From assembly GCA_012837715.1 (NCBI GenBank), contig DUQR01000011.1, positions 1 to 39,423 on the forward strand: a stretch of 39,423 nucleotides of DNA. The letters run 5' to 3'. Under the pieces are notes generated by a model, which saw only the letters and a list, made by a program, of their open reading frames with translations, ran no database searches and was not told where the DNA came from. Below, in pieces: positions 1,379 through 39,044 of this stretch. The position numbers and the translations under genes are program-made. This stretch comes from Bacillota bacterium (GTDB lineage Bacteria > Bacillota > UBA4882 > UBA10575). Each line of letters starts with the position of its first letter. The stretch's first letter is position 1.

Positions 1379-2722
1379 TTATGCGCCGTTACTTACGGTA
1401 ACCAACGGCCGTTCCTGATCTTCAGGATTTTGGAGGTAAACGTAATCCCACTCTGTGCTGGACACCAGTATGGCATAGACTTCTTGGGCTTGGTGACGGC
1501 AGGTTGCACAAGCATGCCATGGCAGTAAGACCGCGGCGATCTGCACCGGTTTCCGCCCGTAACGTTCGGCAAAGGATAGGATCTTCCGGTAACCACTGCA
1601 TTGCCCACATCTTTTGATCTCTTCAAGCTGCATTTCATGGATATCATCGGTATCATAGTAAAGGCGCCGTTTTCGTCGGAAGAATTCATCTGCGCCAAAG
1701 ACCCGCTCCAAATCGGCCTCCTTCCGACTTGCCCAAGTTTCTTGCAGAAATGCTACATTATGGACCACTTCTTCCCGGACCGGCCTTTCCTGCCTCAACT
1801 CCGGGGGTAATTCGGGTTCGAGCACTCCGGTATAATCCAACCCGGCTAAGGCCAAGATGATTCCCACATTCACATAGGGTAAGGAGCCTTCGATCGAATA
1901 GCCTCCTTCCAGCACCACCAGATCAGGGGCTAATAATTCAGTGAGTCGGGCGTAACCCTGGGCGGTAACATTCATATTGGTGAGCGGGTCGGTGAAATGA
2001 TTGTCTTGACCGGCCGCATTAATCACCAGATCCGGTTGGAAGTCCTTAAGAACCGGTAAGACCAGATGTTCAACGGCGTACAATAACTCCGGATCTCCGC
2101 TTCCCGGCGGGAGGGGAAGATTAAGGGTCAACCCATAAGCCCCTGGACCACCCAGTTCATTAATGGCGCCCGTTCCCGGATACAAAGTCCGACCGTCCTG
2201 ATGAATACTGATGTGCAGAATATCCGGATCGTTATAGTAGACGTCTTGGGTGCCATCGGCATGGTGGGCATCGGTATCAACGATGGCTACCCGCAAACGC
2301 CCGCCCCAGCTTTTCCGTAAGTATTCAACAAGCACCGCTTCACTGTTAATCGTACAAAACCCGCGGGAACCATGGACAATCCGCAGCGCATGGTGGCCCG
2401 GCGGACGTAATAAGGCAAAAGCCCGTTCCGTTTTTCCTGCGGTGACCAACTGGCCGGCGCGCACCGTTCCCCCGGCCGCAATCAGGTGGGATTCGGTACA
2501 CACTTTTGCGACTGAGGGCACGCAAATATGGACCCGTTCAATATCTTCGACCGCAGCCAGCTGCGGCCGGAACTCTTCAATCTCCGGAAGATCCAAGAGG
2601 CCTTCTTCCCGAATCTGGTCTCTGGTGTAAAGCAAGCGTTCTTCCCGTTCGGGATGATCGGGCGCGATTGCCCAGTCAAAGGCTGGAAAGAAAACCAACC
2701 CTACTTTGGGTTTACCATCCAT
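1379..2722 (-). CDS. Histone deacetylase family (AcuC-like) protein with C-terminal cysteine-pair extension
   Basis: Residues 1-295 form an arginase/deacetylase fold. RPPGHHA at 106-112 supplies the catalytic His pair, VDTDAHHADGTQ at 149-159 the zinc ligands D151 and H153, and NAAGQD the third ligand D240; EGGY at 272-275 supplies the usual Tyr. The family hydrolyses acetyl-lysine, acetylpolyamines or similar amides; the bacterial substrate here is unknown. Residues 340-447 are an extra domain with CGQC at 372-375 and CATC at 405-408, which could form a zinc ribbon. At 447 residues the protein is longer than the usual 340-390. The start at 2722 is preceded by GGAGTGA. It follows the hydantoinase-like gene by about 100 bp in the same direction and may be cotranscribed. 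Confidence 0.88.
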   Translation of the reverse strand: MDGKPKVGLVFFPAFDWAIAPDHPEREERLLYTRDQIREEGLLDLPEIEEFRPQLAAVEDIERVHICVPSVAKVCTESHLIAAGGTVRAGQLVTAGKTERAFALLRPPGHHALRIVHGSRGFCTINSEAVLVEYLRKSWGGRLRVAIVDTDAHHADGTQDVYYNDPDILHISIHQDGRTLYPGTGAINELGGPGAYGLTLNLPLPPGSGDPELLYAVEHLVLPVLKDFQPDLVINAAGQDNHFTDPLTNMNVTAQGYARLTELLAPDLVVLEGGYSIEGSLPYVNVGIILALAGLDYTGVLEPELPPELRQERPVREEVVHNVAFLQETWASRKEADLERVFGADEFFRRKRRLYYDTDDIHEMQLEEIKRCGQCSGYRKILSFAERYGRKPVQIAAVLLPWHACATCRHQAQEVYAILVSSTEWDYVYLQNPEDQERPLVTVSNGA

Positions 2723-2825
2723 TTTTAATCAGCTCACTCCATCTTGGGCTTCTGCCTTTTAGTTCAGACACTATATATTGTATCGGGAACTTTTTGTTGT
2801 TCACGACGCAAAAAGCCGATCTTCG

Positions 2826-4511
2826 TCAGCACAATTGGATGCTCCGGGTTTTCGGTTTCACTTGTGCCCTTAAGGAATAATATTTACCGATCGTATGAAA
2901 ACCTCGGACCAGATTAAAGACTTCCTCTTCGGTAAGTTCGATCTCCGCTGGTTCGTAACGAACTCCGAATTCAGCAGCATAATCCAGCACGTGCCGGATC
3001 GCCTCTTCACGAGCTACTTCCAGGTTAAAGGAGAATGGGCGTCTAATCGTCTCCGCGTAGTCTAACTCCGGCACCACCAATTGGCCCAAAGCCGTATCGG
3101 AGCGTAAGGTAATGGCGAAGGTGGGCCGGCTGGCAGCGGCGCCAATGGCGTTGGCGGCCTCGTGGTAGGGAAGAACCTGGTAGGGGAGGCCCAACTGTTG
3201 GCCGATCTTAGGAATAAAGTAAACAGCCGGCCCGCCCATGCCGATCAGCTTCTGTGGTTGAAAGTTGGCGCCGGTCAGCACTTGCGAGACAGTATAGACC
3301 GGCCTGTTATTCAATTCCTGATAGATCTCTTTAATAACCTGGGCGGCTTTTTCGGCAAAAGCGGTGACAATTTGCTCCGCCAACCTCAGGGGTGCACAGC
3401 CGAAAGGAGCACCCAGCGCCTGGATGGCGCGAAAGGAGCGTTGTGGGTTTCCCAAGGCCGCTCCTCCGAGAACAAGCACCGCATCGGTGGGCGTAACCCG
3501 GGGTCCCCCTAAAGCAACCGGCGGTCCTTCCCGTTGGGGACCAATGGTCACCCGGTTTCCATCGTAGGTAACGACACTATCGCCCCCCAGTCCAATCGAA
3601 CGGGAAAAAAAGGCCGGCACTAAAGTGGGAAACCCGGCGATCACCGCTCCTTCCCGTTCCGCCAGGGGTTCTCCCCCGGCAAAAACCGAGATCTCGGTGG
3701 TCGTTCCGCCGATATCCAGCGCTACCGCATCTTGGATCCCGTCCGCTAAAGCCATCGTCCCCATTAAACTAGCCGCCGGGCCGGAAAGGATCGTCTCAAT
3801 GGAGCGATTGATTGATTCCTGTAAAGCCAAAGTCCCTCCATCGGCCTTCAAGAGATAGATCCTGCCTAGCCTATATTGAGCTTTTAATGCTTGCACCATG
3901 TGAACAAATTCGGCTTGGAGCTTAGCAATACTGGCATTTAAAGCCGCCGTTGTAATCCGGCGGGCAAAATTCAACTTACCGGATAAGCGGTGACCCAGCG
4001 TTACCGGTAATAGCTGCGGATCATCTTTCGCGATCATGCTTTCAATCGCTAGCTCATGCTGAAAATTACGGGGTGAAAACTTCCCCACGACAGCCAGGGC
4101 TTGGTACCCGGCTTCCTTAATTGCCGTTAATTGTTGTCGGAGCTCAGCCCGGTCCAAAGGCTTCACTTCCCGTCCCCGGTGGTCGATATATCCGGTTAAG
4201 GGATACAGTTTGAAGGGAAGCTTAAACTCCTCCCAACGAAGTCCTGGACCGGGAATGATCAGAACCGCCGTTGGCGCCCCTTTCCCTTCCACCACGGCAT
4301 TGGTGGCAAGGGTAGTGCTTAAGTGCAGTTCAACCTTGTCCGGTTCCTTGCCGGGTAAATCCGATAGGAGTTGGGTGATGGCACTCCTTGTCCCCGTATG
4401 TAGATTCTGGTGGTCGGTAGGAGCCTTCACCGTCGCCAAGATTTTACCTTCCTTCAATAAGACACCGTTGGTATTCGTTCCCCCAACATCGATCCCAATC
4501 AGGTATGACAC
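2826..4511 (-). CDS. Hydantoinase/oxoprolinase family protein, A (ATPase) subunit type
   Basis: The protein shows the HyuA architecture. An actin-like nucleotide site begins at the N-terminus with LIGIDVGGTNTNGVLL, followed by STTLATNAVVEGKG near residue 80 and a second phosphate-binding signature ALDIGGTTTEISVF near residue 265. HyuA-type subunits use ATP to open hydantoin or 5-oxoproline rings or to carboxylate ketones (acetone carboxylase beta). No HyuB partner is visible, so the reaction is uncertain. The open frame extends to an ATG at 4550, but a GAGGAGGTG ribosome binding site sits 6-9 bp before a GTG at 4511, and the protein begins at the family's conserved N-terminus only from there (561 residues). 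Confidence 0.85.
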   Translation of the reverse strand: MSYLIGIDVGGTNTNGVLLKEGKILATVKAPTDHQNLHTGTRSAITQLLSDLPGKEPDKVELHLSTTLATNAVVEGKGAPTAVLIIPGPGLRWEEFKLPFKLYPLTGYIDHRGREVKPLDRAELRQQLTAIKEAGYQALAVVGKFSPRNFQHELAIESMIAKDDPQLLPVTLGHRLSGKLNFARRITTAALNASIAKLQAEFVHMVQALKAQYRLGRIYLLKADGGTLALQESINRSIETILSGPAASLMGTMALADGIQDAVALDIGGTTTEISVFAGGEPLAEREGAVIAGFPTLVPAFFSRSIGLGGDSVVTYDGNRVTIGPQREGPPVALGGPRVTPTDAVLVLGGAALGNPQRSFRAIQALGAPFGCAPLRLAEQIVTAFAEKAAQVIKEIYQELNNRPVYTVSQVLTGANFQPQKLIGMGGPAVYFIPKIGQQLGLPYQVLPYHEAANAIGAAASRPTFAITLRSDTALGQLVVPELDYAETIRRPFSFNLEVAREEAIRHVLDYAAEFGVRYEPAEIELTEEEVFNLVRGFHTIGKYYSLRAQVKPKTRSIQLC

Positions 4512-10812: not shown

Positions 10813-12678
10813 TTAGTCTTCATCCTCTGTTTCATAAACATAGATCTCGCCATCTGCACATTCCATGATCACTTCGTCTGAATAAAACTCGCGGCCGAAA
10901 ACGTCCACTACTTTGTACTGATAAAGGTAATCACCGTCAATGAGTTCACTCTCTTCCATCACCACTGGGCCATCAACAGAAAAACTACCAAGTTCATAAA
11001 TGTTTTCCTCCCCGGTTTCCCAGTTAATTGCTTCGAAGAGCGGCGTCACTTCGTCACCGTCTTTAAGCTTTATAACCTCCCGGGAACTCATCCCTGTAGC
11101 CGGATCAATTCCATCCCAAGCGCCATAAACTTTGAAATAGCCATCGTCATCCGATTCCCAGATATAGGTGGCCCGTAAGTTAGTCTCTTTCCCGTTAAGC
11201 AAAATCGGAATTGAATAAAGGTTATAATCACCCGCTTCTGCTAATAAGGTCGGCGCACAATATAACCCGTTCAAGGTGGGCCAAACCCCCCGGAAATTAT
11301 CCCAGAACACCCCGTTCTCCCAATCAGCCTCAATATCATTATCATAGCCAAGAAGCATATATTCATCATATTCATAATCCATATAATAGAGGCTGAACTG
11401 TACGGAGTGCACTGCTTCCAACCCATTGGTAATCTCCAAGACAAAGTATCCGTCTTCATCAATATAGGATTCTAACTCGATCTCATAATCATCCTTTTGA
11501 ACCGCCTGTTCCACCTGGGGAATATCCTCAACCAGGTCTTCCGGAGCTTCCCAATCGGTTACCACTTCCAGAAAGCGTAAATAATTCTTACTGATCGCCG
11601 TTTGGTAAGCATAAGCTTTCAGCTCATCATGGTTGATCCCTAAAGGGAAATACACAGATAGACCACTGGCCTTGGCACGGCTTTGGCCTTTAATATTATA
11701 TTTTACTGCCGTGTTGAGGGCATTTAATACTTGATCGGCCGTCTCCGGTAACACCCGCTCGGTATTGCGGATTAAGTCTCCTAAATCGACCATGTTGGCA
11801 TACCCTTCATCGTCATTGTTGCCACCATAGTTTTCGGCACGGGTCACCCCTTGGACAAAGCCGCGTAAGGAAGACATCTCCCTGGTGACCCCAATCATCT
11901 CCTGAGCCATCGCGTCAAAGGCCGCCACCAACTCGGGGATCGCTGCCAAATCAATGACGGAAAGGGTGGCCATCCCTTCTTCATCTTCCAGTTCGCATTT
12001 TTTGTAATAGCTGTCACAGATGACTTTTCCCACTTCCAACCCGCTTGCTTCCGGATCATCCGCTATGTACTGCAGCCATGAACAATAATCCCAACCACCG
12101 CCCGGTTCCAGTTCCTCGGAAGCAACCATATACCGGGCATAAGGTGCCAAGGTCGCCGCCGTTTCTAAAGTTGCCATCAAGCAAGTATCAAAACCAACCA
12201 GTTCAAAGTGGACCCCGGCCGATGCAAAAGCTTCCGCCAATTCATCCAGGGTAAGACTATCCATCTTGAACAGCTCGTCAAATTCTACCCCCGCTACAGA
12301 ACCGCCACCATGGTTCCAAAAAACAAGCATATATTTTTCGGCTGGATAATTCTCCGCCCCCCAACGTAAAAAGTCACTAAGCGTTTTCGGATCCCCCATA
12401 CTGGTTAAACGCTGCTCATCGACAAGATATAAATCGTTATCTTCAAGCTCCCAACGTTGCACGTAATCCGGATCAATTACTTCGTTCCACCATTCTTCGG
12501 TCCCACCGGTCTGGATAACAAAGTTCACACTGTCCGTGAGTTCCACGTCGAGTAACTCAAGAAGATTATCCGTTGCCAAACCGGCTTCCGTTTCCAAATC
12601 CGTTCCGCATAGATATAAAAAGATGGACCAATCAGCAATATTTTTGGAAACTACAGGAAGGCTACTACTAAGGACCAC
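10813..12678 (-). CDS. Clostripain-related (C11 family) cysteine peptidase, probably exported
   Basis: Counted from the GTG at 12678 (621 residues), the catalytic dyad is visible as FWNHGGGS with His123 and VGFDTCLMAT with Cys166, and the family N-terminal strand DWSIFLYLCGTDLE is at 17-30. C11 peptidases cleave after Arg or Lys. The C-terminal 250 residues are acidic, beta-rich and unassigned. The GTG at 12678 lies inside what looks like a hydrophobic signal sequence that continues in frame upstream (RIKRLSLCTLLLFVVV), but no ATG, GTG or TTG occurs there before the in-frame stop. The true start may be a rare codon (ATA at 12717 or ATT further up) or may be damaged. A terminator follows the gene. 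Confidence 0.85.
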   Translation of the reverse strand: MVLSSSLPVVSKNIADWSIFLYLCGTDLETEAGLATDNLLELLDVELTDSVNFVIQTGGTEEWWNEVIDPDYVQRWELEDNDLYLVDEQRLTSMGDPKTLSDFLRWGAENYPAEKYMLVFWNHGGGSVAGVEFDELFKMDSLTLDELAEAFASAGVHFELVGFDTCLMATLETAATLAPYARYMVASEELEPGGGWDYCSWLQYIADDPEASGLEVGKVICDSYYKKCELEDEEGMATLSVIDLAAIPELVAAFDAMAQEMIGVTREMSSLRGFVQGVTRAENYGGNNDDEGYANMVDLGDLIRNTERVLPETADQVLNALNTAVKYNIKGQSRAKASGLSVYFPLGINHDELKAYAYQTAISKNYLRFLEVVTDWEAPEDLVEDIPQVEQAVQKDDYEIELESYIDEDGYFVLEITNGLEAVHSVQFSLYYMDYEYDEYMLLGYDNDIEADWENGVFWDNFRGVWPTLNGLYCAPTLLAEAGDYNLYSIPILLNGKETNLRATYIWESDDDGYFKVYGAWDGIDPATGMSSREVIKLKDGDEVTPLFEAINWETGEENIYELGSFSVDGPVVMEESELIDGDYLYQYKVVDVFGREFYSDEVIMECADGEIYVYETEDED

Positions 12679-12938: not shown

Positions 12939-15335
12939 TTATTGATCAGAATTAATCGCCATGGTTTTTCGTGCATAAGCAATCGCTTGCTGGCGGGTTT
13001 GAAAATGGAGTTTTTTAATAATGGCCGCCATTTCATATTTAACGGTCCGTTCCGAGATAAAAAGTTGCGCGCTGATCTCCTTGTAGGTCTTCCCCGCTGC
13101 CACCAAGGTTAAGATTTCAGTCTGTCGCGGTGATAAAACCGCTTCGGGTTTGAGCAGATCTTCTCCAACGGTGGCCGCAATCTGATTTTCCCCCTGATTA
13201 AATTCGGCCAAAACCTGATGGGCAAGATCGGGCGCTAACACCGCAGTACCGGAAGCTAAACCGATTAACTGTTCTACCAATTCTTCGCCCCGGAGGTTTT
13301 TTAGAAGATAGCCGGAGGCTCCGTTTTTAATTGCCCGGAATAAATCGACTTCATGGTCGGAGATGGTTAGAATGACAATTTTGATCTCCGGCATTTCCGC
13401 TTTGATTAAACGGGTCGCCGTGAGCCCATTACACCGGGGCATCTGCAAATCCATCAGGATCAGATCCGGATGATAAAGACGGGCTTTTTCCAACGCCTCC
13501 AAACCGTCTTTGGCCTGCCCTACTACGGTAAAGCCTTTCGCCGTAAGTAATTTTTGTAAACCTTCCATAAAAAGAGCGTGGTCGTCGACAAGAAGGATGC
13601 GGAGCTTGATTTCATTCCCCTGTGGCGCTTTTTTCTTCTCCCCTCCGGTTCCCTTCTCTTCTGGATTTTGCCCTTGGTAGACCGGGAGGGTAATGGTGAC
13701 CGTCGTGCCTTTTCCCGACGGGGAATCAATTTGAACCCGACCGCCGATTTGCTCCGCCCGTTCCCGCATTACCGCCAAACCAAATGAACATTCTTGGGCA
13801 TTCAGCTTTTCAGGTCTAATGCCAACCCCATGATCGATGATTTGCACTTGAATCCGGCCTGCTCTTTTCTGAAAGTTGATCCATGCTTGGTCGGTGTTGG
13901 CGTGCTTACGAACATTGGTTAAGGCTTCTTGGATAATCCGATAGAGTTGAACTCCGGCTGATAAACTAATTTCCTCTTCTTTAATCAGGTCCGGGTTTTC
14001 CATCGCCACTTTAATTTGGAAATTCCGTTCGTAACGGGATAGAAATTGTTGTAAAGCGCTGAAAAATCCCTTTTTAAAGAGTAACGAAGTTCGTGCCTCA
14101 TAGATAAACTCTCTAATTTCCTGACTTGCTTCCCCAACAACCTGCGCCATCTTATTCAGAAGCTCATCTGCTTCGCCCAAACGCCCATTCCTAATTCCTT
14201 CCCGGATATTCCCGATCTGTAAATTAGTATAACTTAAGACTTGCCCGACACTATCATGCAGTTCCCGGGCCAACCGTTCTCTTTCCTCTAAAACCAACAA
14301 AGCTTGTTTCTGTTGGGCTAATTTGGCCTCCGCCTCTTTATATGAGGTGACATTGCGGATGACAAGCAAGCGTCCAACGTTTTTATATCCTTCGAGTAAA
14401 CTAGAATAATACGCCTCGTAGGTATGGCCTGCGTAGGAAAACTCCCGAATCATCGTTGTTGTATCCGCCCATAGTTCGGGCCATTCACGTAATACTTCCG
14501 TCAAGGGCCGCCCCGCCACCGCACCGATTCTGACCCCAAAGAACACTTCTGCCGCTGGATTCATATCCATGACCCGATTGCGGTTATCCAATACAATCAC
14601 CGCATTGGACATCTTCTCCAAAACCGCTTTTCTGGGAACCGGCACCACCTCTTGCCGGCGAAAACGAAAACCCAAACTGGTATAGGCTACCGCGACACTA
14701 ATCGCAACCGGCGTAATATCCACCGAAAACCAACTCGGCCTACTGACAATCAAGATGATTTGGATTAAGACACTACCAGTGGCCAAAGCAACCCCCAAAG
14801 CCTGTTTCGGGTGGAGAATCTCCCGGTTTAGCGCCGCCTTGGTTTGGACCGCCATTACGGCCAATAAGACAATAAGACAATAAACTAAGATCACCCAATA
14901 CCAAGGGCCGGGAATGAGTTTCAAGACCTGGTAAGGACCTAAAGCTTCCATACGTAGCTGATGATAGACCAAGCCATGCCAGGAATTAGTCATATTCAAA
15001 AGATCCGTCACCACCGGAAGCGTAAAAAGAAGCGCGATCCGCGGCCGTGTTAACCATCTTTTTTTGCCCGCAACGCGCACCGCCCATAACAACCAAACCA
15101 TCGGCACTTTCAAGCCGATAAAATCGTTGGCAATAACATAACTCAAGAAGGCCGTCCCTAAATCAGTAACGGAGATCTGTAAAGCAAACCCCAGAGACCA
15201 TAAAGCCACCATGGCCAGGGTGGCAAGGCTTAACCCATCGGCCACCTTTTTACGGACCATATAGATCATTAAGAAAAATAATAATCCAATACTACAGAAA
15301 TAGAGCCATATGTTAGGATTATACTGAAAAAACAT
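12939..15335 (-). CDS. Sensor histidine kinase fused to a receiver and LuxR-type DNA-binding domain
   Basis: One uninterrupted 798-residue frame carries a whole two-component system. Residues about 10-220 form seven hydrophobic segments (HisKA_7TM type). A PAS domain spans about 235-335 (NAVIVLDNRNRVMDMNPAAEVFFG), followed by a short coiled coil. HisKA_3 is at 350-415 with ERERLARELHDSVGQ and phospho-His360; HATPase at 455-550 with QEALTNVRKHAN and DHGVGI. After a charged linker (551-575) come a receiver at 578-695 with DD584-585, phosphoacceptor Asp629 and Lys679, and a NarL/LuxR helix-turn-helix at 733-792 (LSPRQTEILTLVAAGKTYKEI). The regulator is thus tied to the membrane. The ATG at 15335 follows AGGTAGAACCA. 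It lies alone, so targets are unknown. Confidence 0.93.
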   Translation of the reverse strand: MFFQYNPNIWLYFCSIGLLFFLMIYMVRKKVADGLSLATLAMVALWSLGFALQISVTDLGTAFLSYVIANDFIGLKVPMVWLLWAVRVAGKKRWLTRPRIALLFTLPVVTDLLNMTNSWHGLVYHQLRMEALGPYQVLKLIPGPWYWVILVYCLIVLLAVMAVQTKAALNREILHPKQALGVALATGSVLIQIILIVSRPSWFSVDITPVAISVAVAYTSLGFRFRRQEVVPVPRKAVLEKMSNAVIVLDNRNRVMDMNPAAEVFFGVRIGAVAGRPLTEVLREWPELWADTTTMIREFSYAGHTYEAYYSSLLEGYKNVGRLLVIRNVTSYKEAEAKLAQQKQALLVLEERERLARELHDSVGQVLSYTNLQIGNIREGIRNGRLGEADELLNKMAQVVGEASQEIREFIYEARTSLLFKKGFFSALQQFLSRYERNFQIKVAMENPDLIKEEEISLSAGVQLYRIIQEALTNVRKHANTDQAWINFQKRAGRIQVQIIDHGVGIRPEKLNAQECSFGLAVMRERAEQIGGRVQIDSPSGKGTTVTITLPVYQGQNPEEKGTGGEKKKAPQGNEIKLRILLVDDHALFMEGLQKLLTAKGFTVVGQAKDGLEALEKARLYHPDLILMDLQMPRCNGLTATRLIKAEMPEIKIVILTISDHEVDLFRAIKNGASGYLLKNLRGEELVEQLIGLASGTAVLAPDLAHQVLAEFNQGENQIAATVGEDLLKPEAVLSPRQTEILTLVAAGKTYKEISAQLFISERTVKYEMAAIIKKLHFQTRQQAIAYARKTMAINSDQ

Positions 15336-15426: not shown

Positions 15427-15771
15427 TTATCCATCGATTTCAACTTCGGATATTTTCTCAAGACGAGTGATTTTAGTTACCTTTTCGCCTTTCTTATTCG
15501 TTACTGTGAATTTAATCCACTCTTCATCCACATCGATAATGTTGCATTTTACCCTATTCGAGGCAATACCCATTGGTAGTTCCTCAAACTTAATCATACA
15601 ATCCCGGCCCTTCAAATCTACTAACATCTTAGCCATTGCTAACACCTCTTTCTTAAGATAACCTTCTCTCCTTTTTATGTTGGAGATCTCCCGTTTGAGC
15701 TTTTTAACTTCATCAGGCAATCCGATAAGACCGATTGTAAGAACGAACGCAAATAAGCCAAAAAACTCCAT
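15427..15771 (-). CDS. Small membrane-anchored protein of unknown function
   Basis: I do not recognise this 114-residue protein as a named family. It has one N-terminal membrane segment (MEFFGLFAFVLTIGLIGL), a charged stretch likely to be a coiled coil (about 19-45, DEVKKLKREISNIKRREGYLKKEV), and a beta-rich end (about 52-112) containing MIKFEELPMGI and CNIIDVDEEWIKFTVTNKKGEKVTKI, which resembles small SH3-like barrels attached to membrane anchors in Firmicutes. The ATG at 15771 follows AAAGGATTGATGGC. It lies upstream of the kinase fusion in the same direction with about 90 bp between, so a functional link is possible but unproven. Confidence 0.7.
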   Translation of the reverse strand: MEFFGLFAFVLTIGLIGLPDEVKKLKREISNIKRREGYLKKEVLAMAKMLVDLKGRDCMIKFEELPMGIASNRVKCNIIDVDEEWIKFTVTNKKGEKVTKITRLEKISEVEIDG

Positions 15772-19956: not shown

Positions 19957-20814
19957 CTATATGCTTACGTGCTCTTCAATCCAGTTCGTAATCCTTTCAA
20001 CCACTTCGGTTGGATATTCGAACTGCAATTTTTGAGCGATCTCCATTGCCAATCTACAAAAGAGATTCAGCGTTGCCCTTAAGGCTCGAAAGCTATCTGC
20101 CTTTTCGTAAAGACTAAAAGTATTCGGTAATTCTACTAGTGTTTCCGGATCAACCCATTCCTCGAGGAAGCGTCCGGCATGCCAAACATCATAGTCAATA
20201 CCGTGTTTTGTTTTGGCATGCCATTCGAGCATTTGTAGTAATAAATTTTTTAGATCCTGTTCCCTTGCTTTGACCAACCATAACTCGCCCCGCATTATTT
20301 GTTTTGCCACGTATAACGCACCGAACAAAAACATATTGATAACTTGAGTAAAGTCGCTCTCCCTGATCTCTGCTGGCCTTTTTGTTTTATGGGTTGATGG
20401 AACCAGGTGATGGCCGACCCGATCTTTGTCGATTAAAATTTTTACTCCCCGATAAAAGCTATCCGGCGTAATTTTGTCTTTAACCATCTGAAGTAAGTTA
20501 TTACTAGGGAGAATAACAATGTCAACCTGGAAACCGCCCTCGAACAAAGTGAGCCGTTCAGGTTCGCCGCTTGAAGTTTGATAAGTCAAGGTAAGCCAAA
20601 TATTACCGAATTTTTTGAGCCAGTCAATGTTTGATAAATAGGTTTCGTGATTACGGGCATACATCATAATGTCCAAATCAGCCCATTGGTCCGCCGGATG
20701 ATCGATCCGCGCCCTTGAACCAACCACAAAAGCGGCTCTTACATCCTCTGTTTTTTCTGCCCACTTTTTAAACGCTTCTTCAAAATTTTTATAAAACTGA
20801 TCTACTTTTTTCAC
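19957..20814 (-). CDS. Aminoglycoside 6-adenylyltransferase family (AadK/ANT(6)-like) nucleotidyltransferase
   Basis: The 285-residue protein has the ANT(6) layout: a nucleotidyltransferase domain with VVGSRAR (about 30-36) and DQWADLDIMM (about 42-51), where the Asp pair binds magnesium, a third Asp in QVDIVIL (about 95-101), and a helical C-terminal domain. ANT(6) enzymes transfer AMP to streptomycin. Many chromosomal Firmicute copies have low or no proven resistance activity, so resistance is only possible, not shown. The GTG start at 20814 has AAGGTGG 12 bp upstream. It stands alone on the minus strand, divergent from cstA, with no mobile-element signs. Confidence 0.85.
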   Translation of the reverse strand: MKKVDQFYKNFEEAFKKWAEKTEDVRAAFVVGSRARIDHPADQWADLDIMMYARNHETYLSNIDWLKKFGNIWLTLTYQTSSGEPERLTLFEGGFQVDIVILPSNNLLQMVKDKITPDSFYRGVKILIDKDRVGHHLVPSTHKTKRPAEIRESDFTQVINMFLFGALYVAKQIMRGELWLVKAREQDLKNLLLQMLEWHAKTKHGIDYDVWHAGRFLEEWVDPETLVELPNTFSLYEKADSFRALRATLNLFCRLAMEIAQKLQFEYPTEVVERITNWIEEHVSI

Positions 20815-37009: not shown

Positions 37010-37681
37010 CTAATCATCGAATTTTTTAAAGGTCAACCCGGTCTGAACGGCAAATATCGCAATCTGGGTCCGATCCCGGAGCCCGAGTTTACTAAGGATG
37101 GTACTGATGTAATTCCGCACCGTTCCTTCTTTTAACTTTAATTTATAGGTAATTTCCTTATTGGATAAACCCATTCCGATCAGCTTAACAATTTTCAACT
37201 CGAGGTGGCCTAATTCATCCAGTAAACTCTCGTCAACTTTAATCCTGAAATCAGCATGGGCCATTTGGGAAAAAAATTTACAGACCTTACTGGCGATATT
37301 CGGATTGAGCAAAGCGCCTCCTTTAACCACTGTTTTGATCGCCCCGATCAGTTTTTCCAGCGAGATCCCTTTTAATAAATAACCACTGGCGCCGTGTTTT
37401 AACGCATTAAAGACGTATTCGTCATCATCAAAGGTTGTTAAAACAATGATCTTTATCTCCGGACGCTTTTCTTTAATTATTTCAATGCATTGCACTCCGT
37501 CAACTTCCGGCATGCGAATATCCATCAATATCACATCGGGATTCAAGGTCTGAGCTAATTCGATCGCCTCTCTCCCGTTCGCCGCCGTTCCGACAATTTT
37601 TAGACCCGGCTTATTTGTTAACATAATCTCAAGGCTTTGTCTAATTAATTCCTGGTCTTCTGCGATCAAGAGCCGTATCAT
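37010..37681 (-). CDS. NarL/LuxR-type response regulator
   Basis: A 223-residue two-domain regulator. The receiver domain (1-120) has the acidic pair in IAEDQE (Glu8, Asp9), phosphoacceptor Asp54 in ILMDIRMPEVDG, Thr in VLTTFDDDEY and Lys in YLLKG. The C-terminal helix-turn-helix (about 155-215) reads LGHLELKIVKLIGMGLSNKEITYKLKLKEGTVRNYISTILSKLGLRDR. It overlaps the kinase gene by 41 bp and is followed after a few bases by the binding-protein gene, so all three are one unit. Its most likely target is the transporter promoter about 1.5 kb downstream. Confidence 0.95.
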   Translation of the reverse strand: MIRLLIAEDQELIRQSLEIMLTNKPGLKIVGTAANGREAIELAQTLNPDVILMDIRMPEVDGVQCIEIIKEKRPEIKIIVLTTFDDDEYVFNALKHGASGYLLKGISLEKLIGAIKTVVKGGALLNPNIASKVCKFFSQMAHADFRIKVDESLLDELGHLELKIVKLIGMGLSNKEITYKLKLKEGTVRNYISTILSKLGLRDRTQIAIFAVQTGLTFKKFDD

Positions 37682-39008
37682 TATTCAAACCTCCTCGTAC
37701 CGGGATCATGGCGCTGACTTTGAAGCCGTTTGGCATGAGCGGTTCAAACTTAACCCAGCCGGCCAGCATTTCGACCCTTTCCCGAATATGCATTAAGCCA
37801 AATCCTTCAACCGGATGGGAACACCCGCTACCGTCATCCTTGATTTCGATCCGAACAATATTGGCTTCAAAACAAAGCTCTACTTTAATCTCTCTGGCCT
37901 TACCATGCCGGACCGCATTGGTGATCCCTTCCTGAATAATCCGGTAAATGGTCTCCTCCTCATCCGGTTGCAAACATACCGTTTCCTTGTTCATAAACAG
38001 CTTTACTTTGGTATTGGTACACTCGTTGATATCTTCCGTCAGTCTTTGAATGGCGGGGATTAACAGAAAACGCTTCAATGAGTCCGGTCGTAATTCACTG
38101 ACCGACCGCCGGACATCCAATAAACCCTTCTTCGCCAAAGCGATGATCTTGATCAGTTGCATTTTGGTCTTCGCTTGATCACGGTCAATCAGTTGAAGAC
38201 AAGCTTCCAGTCCAGTAGCAATCCCGGTTAAGGCATGGCCGAGCGTATCGTGAATCTCCCTGGCCAACCGGTTCCTTTCGCGGGTTTTGGCCATTTCTTC
38301 CGATTTTTTAGCGTAGTTATGCAGTTGAATGTTGGCGATCTTCAATTCCCCGGCGGTTTGATACAATTGATCATAGAGTTCTTTGATCCGCTTTTTTTCA
38401 TCAATCTGTCCCTGAATCACAAAGATCATGAAGACGATAAAAATCATTTCGTTCAAGGAAGATAATATATTCCGGAAACCATGAATATATAACCTTTGGT
38501 TGGCAGTATAATACTGAATATATTCATTTAAGGAGAATAAATTGACTTTAATTGACAAAATATCATAATCAACAAAGACATAAACGGTGATGGCAGCAAT
38601 GATAAATAGATATTTACGCTTTATCCCATCAATATAAATAATAATATTGGCGATCGCCACCATCAAAATTCCTTTGTAACTCATATTCAGAATGAACATA
38701 ATCGCGATACAAATGACCAGATCCAAAATGCTAAATATATAAAAGACTGCTTTATACTCCCGGGGGATCCGGTTTCTAATCAGGACACTACTATATAAAA
38801 GGAATAATAAAAAAATGGAATAAACCGGAACTTGCCATGGTATGGTCGGCACACACTTAATCCGCTCCAAAAAGATGCGTGCCATGTCTTTCCAACAAAT
38901 CAATTCGACAGCCTTATAGATTAAAGCCGATAAAAAAGAGACTGTCAAAAAATTAATTAAAAACATAAGATTTCTCGTTACATTTATGTTTTTTTGGCTT
39001 ATAAGCAT
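37641..39008 (-). CDS. Sensor histidine kinase, NarL-partner (HisKA_3) type
   Basis: A 455-residue membrane kinase. Residues about 10-215 contain about six hydrophobic segments with short external loops. A coiled coil (about 220-255) leads to HisKA_3 with RERNRLAREIHDTLGHALTG, the His in REIHD being the phosphorylation site, and a HATPase_c domain with EEETIYRIIQEGITNAVRHG, IKDDGSGC and GFGLMHIRERVEML. There is no large sensor domain, which suits a partner protein such as the anchored solute-binding protein made from the same transcript. The frame opens at a GTG (39017) within the GAGGTGA ribosome site, so the ATG at 39008 is chosen. A promoter lies at 39155-39183. Confidence 0.94.
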   Translation of the reverse strand: MLISQKNINVTRNLMFLINFLTVSFLSALIYKAVELICWKDMARIFLERIKCVPTIPWQVPVYSIFLLFLLYSSVLIRNRIPREYKAVFYIFSILDLVICIAIMFILNMSYKGILMVAIANIIIYIDGIKRKYLFIIAAITVYVFVDYDILSIKVNLFSLNEYIQYYTANQRLYIHGFRNILSSLNEMIFIVFMIFVIQGQIDEKKRIKELYDQLYQTAGELKIANIQLHNYAKKSEEMAKTRERNRLAREIHDTLGHALTGIATGLEACLQLIDRDQAKTKMQLIKIIALAKKGLLDVRRSVSELRPDSLKRFLLIPAIQRLTEDINECTNTKVKLFMNKETVCLQPDEEETIYRIIQEGITNAVRHGKAREIKVELCFEANIVRIEIKDDGSGCSHPVEGFGLMHIRERVEMLAGWVKFEPLMPNGFKVSAMIPVRGGLNNDTALDRRRPGIN

Positions 39009-39044
39009 CACGGTCACCTCTAGCCTTAACCCGTTTCGATGTTT

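Follow-up and report, generated by a model that had tools for sequence, protein, structure and literature searches.

HTCS of Bacteroides, which hold a membrane kinase and an AraC-type regulator in one chain, carry a large periplasmic sensor between membrane helices, and in kinases of the HisKA_3 family the HDxxxQ motif is linked to dephosphorylation of the partner receiver. It is argued in PMC11253607 that tethering in HTCS relaxes the specificity between kinase and receiver and calls for a lock on the DNA-binding domain within the protein itself; in these AraC-ended proteins, a receiver contact restrains that domain, and the mechanism works through this contact and phosphorylation. The same source describes the recognition helix of NarL as being kept at the interdomain receiver surface. 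No description of a LuxR-ended single-chain HisKA_3 system was found in literature titles and abstract openings, a weak negative as many subscription papers fall outside this coverage. The window analysed here, i.e. the whole 39,423-nucleotide stretch of contig DUQR01000011.1 from a Bacillota bacterium (GCA_012837715.1), encodes such a protein.

One frame from membrane sensor to DNA-binding domain

The preliminary description had reported an unbroken 798-residue frame at 12939-15335. This is exact, and the strand, which it did not state, is minus: translation gives a single ORF of 798 codons with an ATG start and no stop, and plus-strand translation of the same interval gives numerous stops. 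The proposed domain order, 7TM-PAS-HisKA_3-HATPase-REC-LuxR in one chain, is matched by Pfam hits over the cut-offs (Table 1), PAS_8 at 237-290 being a weaker match (1.7e-6, 28.2 bits against a cut-off of 21.8). His360 (RELHDSVGQ) and Asp629 (LMDLQMP) are also located as that description put them.

Table 1. Coordinates in the window of the single-chain gene and its parts
Feature	Residues	Position	Strand	Basis
Single-chain two-component system, 798 aa		12939..15335	-	One frame; six orthologues likewise
HisKA_7TM, seven-helix membrane sensor	12-232	14640..15302	-	Pfam 2.9e-31; seven model helical stretches
PAS domain	237-290; model strands reach 328	14466..14627	-	Pfam PAS_8, model
HisKA_3 dimerisation/phosphotransfer	351-417	14085..14285	-	Pfam 2.7e-13; HDxxxQ H360-Q365
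Phospho-acceptor His360 codon	360	14256..14258	-	Sequence position, alignment invariance
HATPase_c	462-553	13677..13952	-	Pfam 7.4e-18; N474, D501, G503, G505, G519 invariant
Kinase-receiver linker	554-577	13605..13676	-	Disordered (model), variable
Receiver, Response_reg	580-690	13266..13598	-	Pfam 3.9e-28; D584, D585, D629, K679 invariant in seven
Phospho-acceptor Asp629 codon	629	13449..13451	-	Sequence position
Linker from receiver to DNA-binding domain	691-732	13140..13265	-	Alignment, model
LuxR/GerE helix-turn-helix	733-788	12972..13139	-	Pfam 3.6e-16

Besides the ATPase and receiver residues in Table 1, H360, D361 and Q365 are invariant in all seven close fused proteins (the window protein and six orthologues), and His360 also throughout a 22-row alignment of eight fused proteins and 14 split kinases. 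Pfam finds the same domain set in seven other fused proteins, i.e. the six close ones and the distant L036; at E 1e-5, PAS was not found in the fused L007, L008 and L009. The best NCBIfam families are NarL for the C-terminal part (150.3 against a cut-off of 250 bits) and NarQ for the kinase part (133.7 against 553 bits). As both scores lie far under the curated cut-offs, assignment of the protein as NarL or NarQ was rejected.

The structure model of the window protein has a mean pLDDT of 76 and a pTM of 0.39, so that inter-domain packing is not settled by it. It contains seven helical stretches within residues 9-225, the fourth being interrupted at 104, and a PAS-like fold, with pLDDT below 50 at 172-174, 225-234, 514-516, 554-574, 697-707 and 715-726. 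Foldseek aligns the kinase part of the model with DesK and other kinases and the regulator part with LiaR, VraR, NarL and DesR, at an rmsd of about 9-17 A that leaves the domain orientation unmatched. A profile of the fused seven likewise matches VraR/LiaR, NarL, DevR, ChrA and DesR chains over the receiver and DNA-binding parts.

Distribution, split relatives and neighbourhood

Among 61 genomes searched, full-length and continuous matches are present in the own genome and in G006, G003, G008, G015 and G022. The species collection adds a full-length close match in DUQP01000050.1 (L023); another, in JAAYHY010000071.1 (L022), was counted once together with the G006 contig. The fused clade comprises seven genomes including that of the window, and the other proteins share 54-73% identity with the window protein. 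Taking the first listed start of each, the frames measure 798 (window), 798, 805, 806, 802 and 799 codons, and 764 for L023, the start of which is uncertain within its 803-codon span between stops. The fused gene, counted where an uninterrupted match extends over the full query, is present in three of eight genus genomes and six of 29 class genomes, several of which are incomplete assemblies, and its distribution is patchy. When the split kinase of the own genome was searched against 14 genus, family and class genomes, only five matched at E 1e-40, each with the fused gene. Together with the seven fused close orthologues (7/7), this means that within the genomes searched the orthologue is either fused or not found. 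The possibility raised beforehand that orthologues are always two genes thus fails nearby and holds further out, where 17 deeper pairs, one of them in the window's own genome, consist of two genes.

In the phylum sample, where at most four candidates were scored per genome, the kinase-to-LuxR part has a match at E 1e-55 in 47 of 398 genomes, and one match runs unbroken over both halves in six (G000, G003, G008, G015, G022 and G108); the remaining rows have internal stops or the regulator half alone. The protein is, as first proposed, a complete single-chain two-component system and not of the AraC-ended Bacteroides type, and the fused form is uncommon within its phylum, a less common version of a usually two-protein arrangement. 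Among plasmids and phages, 40 and 44 records of the respective collections match, none of them with 80% of the query covered at a single place; the two one-piece plasmid matches among the 15 listed have two genes each.

The two-gene homologue of the own genome, on contig 43, has overlapping frames, an ATG lying 26 bases upstream of where the kinase gene ends. A tree was constructed for the eight fused forms and 17 split pairs whose kinase also matches the sensor part (checked with Pfam on L002 alone), with four pairs without a sensor match as outgroup. Pairs with a cut kinase or one without the sensor part (L011, L014, L026, L046-L048, L050-L052, L054-L056) and repeats of included pairs (e.g., L003, L017, L019, L022) were left out; the near-copies L012/L043 and L038/L039 make 17 an overestimate of the independent split cases. 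The seven close fused proteins form one clade with a support of 100/100. L036 (genome G108, a distant Bacillota), an 808 aa protein encoded at 1495-3921 (-) in one frame from the seven-helix region to LuxR, lies outside this clade on a long branch. The tree requires two changes and suggests that the clade of seven and L036 arose by separate fusions, but a single clade of all eight fused forms was not rejected (AU p 0.27). The regulator-only and kinase-only trees are quick trees, the former with long branches. Of the 17 split pairs, 16 have a candidate regulator start inside the end of the kinase gene or at most four bases after it, the exception being L020, where it is 196 bases off; given this overlapping or abutting layout, few changes would be needed for a fusion. 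The split pair L037 (genome G327) has a layout very near to the fused form: both frames are in phase, with one TAG between them and an ATG just after.

Comparing the ORFs of L028, L029, L030 and L023 with the window, no common neighbours were found beyond the nearest relative, G006 (L028). The genes are flanked by capsule-chain genes (Wzz, CpsB) in L029, HAD and FmdE/TrmO-like genes in L030 and HhH-GPD and TPP-enzyme genes in L023; L007 and L008 are entire contigs of about 3.1 kb and uninformative on neighbours. The idea that a conserved operon might point to the target was rejected, since only G006 keeps neighbours. Within the last 300 bases upstream (fewer for L008), no 8- or 9-mer is common to at least four of the eight regions, and no recurring inverted repeat was seen in them. 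A small frame on the same strand, 91 bases upstream of the fused gene (15427-15771, -), has no Pfam match at E 0.001 and is possibly co-transcribed with it. Adjoining the fused gene is that of a clostripain-family C11 peptidase (10813-12678, -). Further in the window, 19957-20814 (-) encodes a streptomycin adenylyltransferase-family protein, the best NCBIfam score of which (ANT(6), 131.6 against 450 bits) lies far under the cut-off, and 37010-39017 (-) holds a HisKA_3 kinase and a LuxR regulator as a common two-gene pair with a 41-base overlap. After this pair, and on its strand, come a gene for a solute-binding protein and a cluster for an ABC transporter of the sugar type. Elsewhere in the own genome, L064 995-2662 (-) encodes 555 aa with a C-terminal LuxR domain and a long N-terminal part without a Pfam match at E 1e-5.

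A probable tethered regulator and its alternatives

The window protein is likely a NarX/NarL- or DesK/DesR-type system in which two genes have become one and DNA is bound while the protein remains tethered to the membrane. This reading builds on features seen directly in the sequences: the domain order, the intact catalytic residues, the continuous frame in seven genomes and the split relatives lying deeper. The seven-helix domain and PAS would sense a ligand or the membrane state, upon which the homodimer would phosphorylate H360 and pass the phosphoryl group to D629 inside the same dimer. By analogy with HTCS and NarL, the DNA-binding domain would be held by the receiver; once phosphorylated, the receiver would let go of the NarL-type helix-turn-helix, which could then pair with its counterpart in the partner chain and bind membrane-adjacent DNA. 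Given the HDxxxQ motif, the unstimulated kinase may also dephosphorylate D629. The tether would create a private pair with a fixed 1:1 ratio, at the cost of a reach limited to membrane-near DNA.

Two regions were compared between fused and split forms. The residue after the conserved Lys-Tyr in the last helix of the helix-turn-helix (768) is His in all 17 split proteins and in L036, and Glu (window, L006, L007) or Gln (L008, L009, L010, L023) in the fused seven, possibly altering the DNA site or the closed receiver contact. For the kinase-receiver contact, mean identities were calculated in the fused seven and in two split sets with five members each. Receiver helix 1 and the whole receiver give 68/76 in the former and 87/73 and 69/71 in the latter, the receiver end segment 679-690 gives 60 against 70 and 61, and the kinase helix after the His and its domain give 68/64 against 83/67 and 69/55. 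These values, from small sets compared without a significance test, lean towards a relaxed contact in the fused seven.

That two genes were joined by a sequencing or assembly artefact would agree with the two-gene state of the deeper relatives, but is practically inconceivable: the frame is uninterrupted in seven genomes at the divergence given above, and the artefact is rejected on this ground. A stop hidden by a sequencing error near 13600, which the preliminary description had considered, is very unlikely given the same continuous frame in six further genomes. The fusion is real and is retained by several related bacteria. It is also highly improbable that the fused receiver serves mainly as a phosphate sink or as a partner of other kinases, with direct DNA control being minor; the genome does have other HisKA_3/LuxR pairs, but GerE scores over its cut-off in all seven close fused proteins and the helix-turn-helix is well conserved.

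The remaining alternatives would free the regulator at the kinase-receiver junction. Proteolysis within the 551-577 linker, yielding a soluble factor, is improbable. The model shows this linker as disordered (pLDDT < 50 at 554-574) and peptidase genes (an M16 pair and C11) lie nearby in the window, but the seven linkers differ in length and sequence and have no common motif in the alignment, the C11 gene is without a match in the 19-kb locus L028 of the nearest relative, and the M16 pair, which is beside the gene there, does not imply a functional link. Release by cleavage at 551-575, as had been suggested, is not supported, and the HTCS mechanism in the published account is contact and phosphorylation. 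An internal start, by which the gene would make a free response regulator besides the full chain, is quite unlikely as well, as window codons 544-585 contain no in-frame ATG, GTG or TTG. With a variable, disordered linker and no in-frame start, neither cleavage nor separate translation is supported in the window, and a free regulator from a junction start is unlikely there. In favour of an internal start, the distant fused L036 has an in-frame ATG (594) at the receiver start with a strong ribosome site (energy -10.8), and may make two products. Candidate GTG starts lie farther upstream in L006, L007 and L010, in frame in the last kinase strand, with moderate energies (-6.6, -6.4 and -5.9), and L010 has an additional ATG at codon 565 (-3.2). 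Since the window gene's own start reaches merely -5.2, these are not to be dismissed, and the three genes may yield a free regulator. Fourteen split regulator starts, taken from the 17 pairs with the start chosen by the analyst, have energies of -5.8 to -10.6 in 11 cases and of -4.3, -3.3 and -0.7 in three.

Taken further than the membrane-tethered reading itself, a tentative proposal, somewhat short of an even chance, is that in a Bacillota clade an overlapping kinase/LuxR pair was fused, lost its regulator start, exchanged His for Glu or Gln at 768, came to control genes from the membrane alone and acquired the looser kinase-receiver contact that is predicted for tethered systems, as an independent LuxR-based counterpart of HTCS. 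With fused and split versions of the same kind of system side by side in a single genome, there is a natural comparison set, in which the effects of tethering on specificity, noise and DNA reach can be compared. A LuxR-based case in Bacillota also bears on the generality of the argument on relaxed specificity and a lock made for HTCS in PMC11253607.

Comparison with known systems

The kinase part has HisKA_3 with HDxxxQ and HATPase_c, as NarX/DesK kinases do, autophosphorylation being predicted. The regulator part has the receiver D/D/K and GerE of the NarL/FixJ type, but stands in the kinase frame in 7/7 proteins instead of being a separate soluble protein. The N-terminal seven-helix region is that of a 7TM histidine kinase, HisKA_7TM being found in seven other fused proteins too. 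NarX/NarL, DesK/DesR and LiaS/LiaR likewise combine a HisKA_3 kinase with HDxxxQ, a NarL-type receiver and GerE, but as two proteins where the window has one chain. Bacillota 7TM kinases with adjacent LuxR regulators, such as Pelotomaculum L024 and the contig 43 pair, have the same order over the whole length, with identities to the window protein of 31% for the kinase and 50-54% for the regulator, but as two overlapping genes. L036 has the same one-frame order but keeps an internal ATG with a ribosome site.

Like Bacteroides HTCS, the window protein holds a membrane kinase and a DNA-binding regulator in one chain and shares the problem, described for HTCS in PMC11253607, of keeping the DNA-binding domain inactive within a kinase dimer. 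However, HTCS end in AraC, whereas the window protein ends in GerE and has no AraC match at E 0.1. HTCS use HisKA and carry an S/CHIP-DK motif at the contact between receiver and DNA-binding domain, according to the same source, whereas the window protein uses HisKA_3 and has no HIP. The large periplasmic sensor is absent, HisKA_7TM and PAS being the only sensor-side matches over cut-off, in agreement with the model. The window protein resembles Bacteroides HTCS in its logic, but it is not an HTCS.
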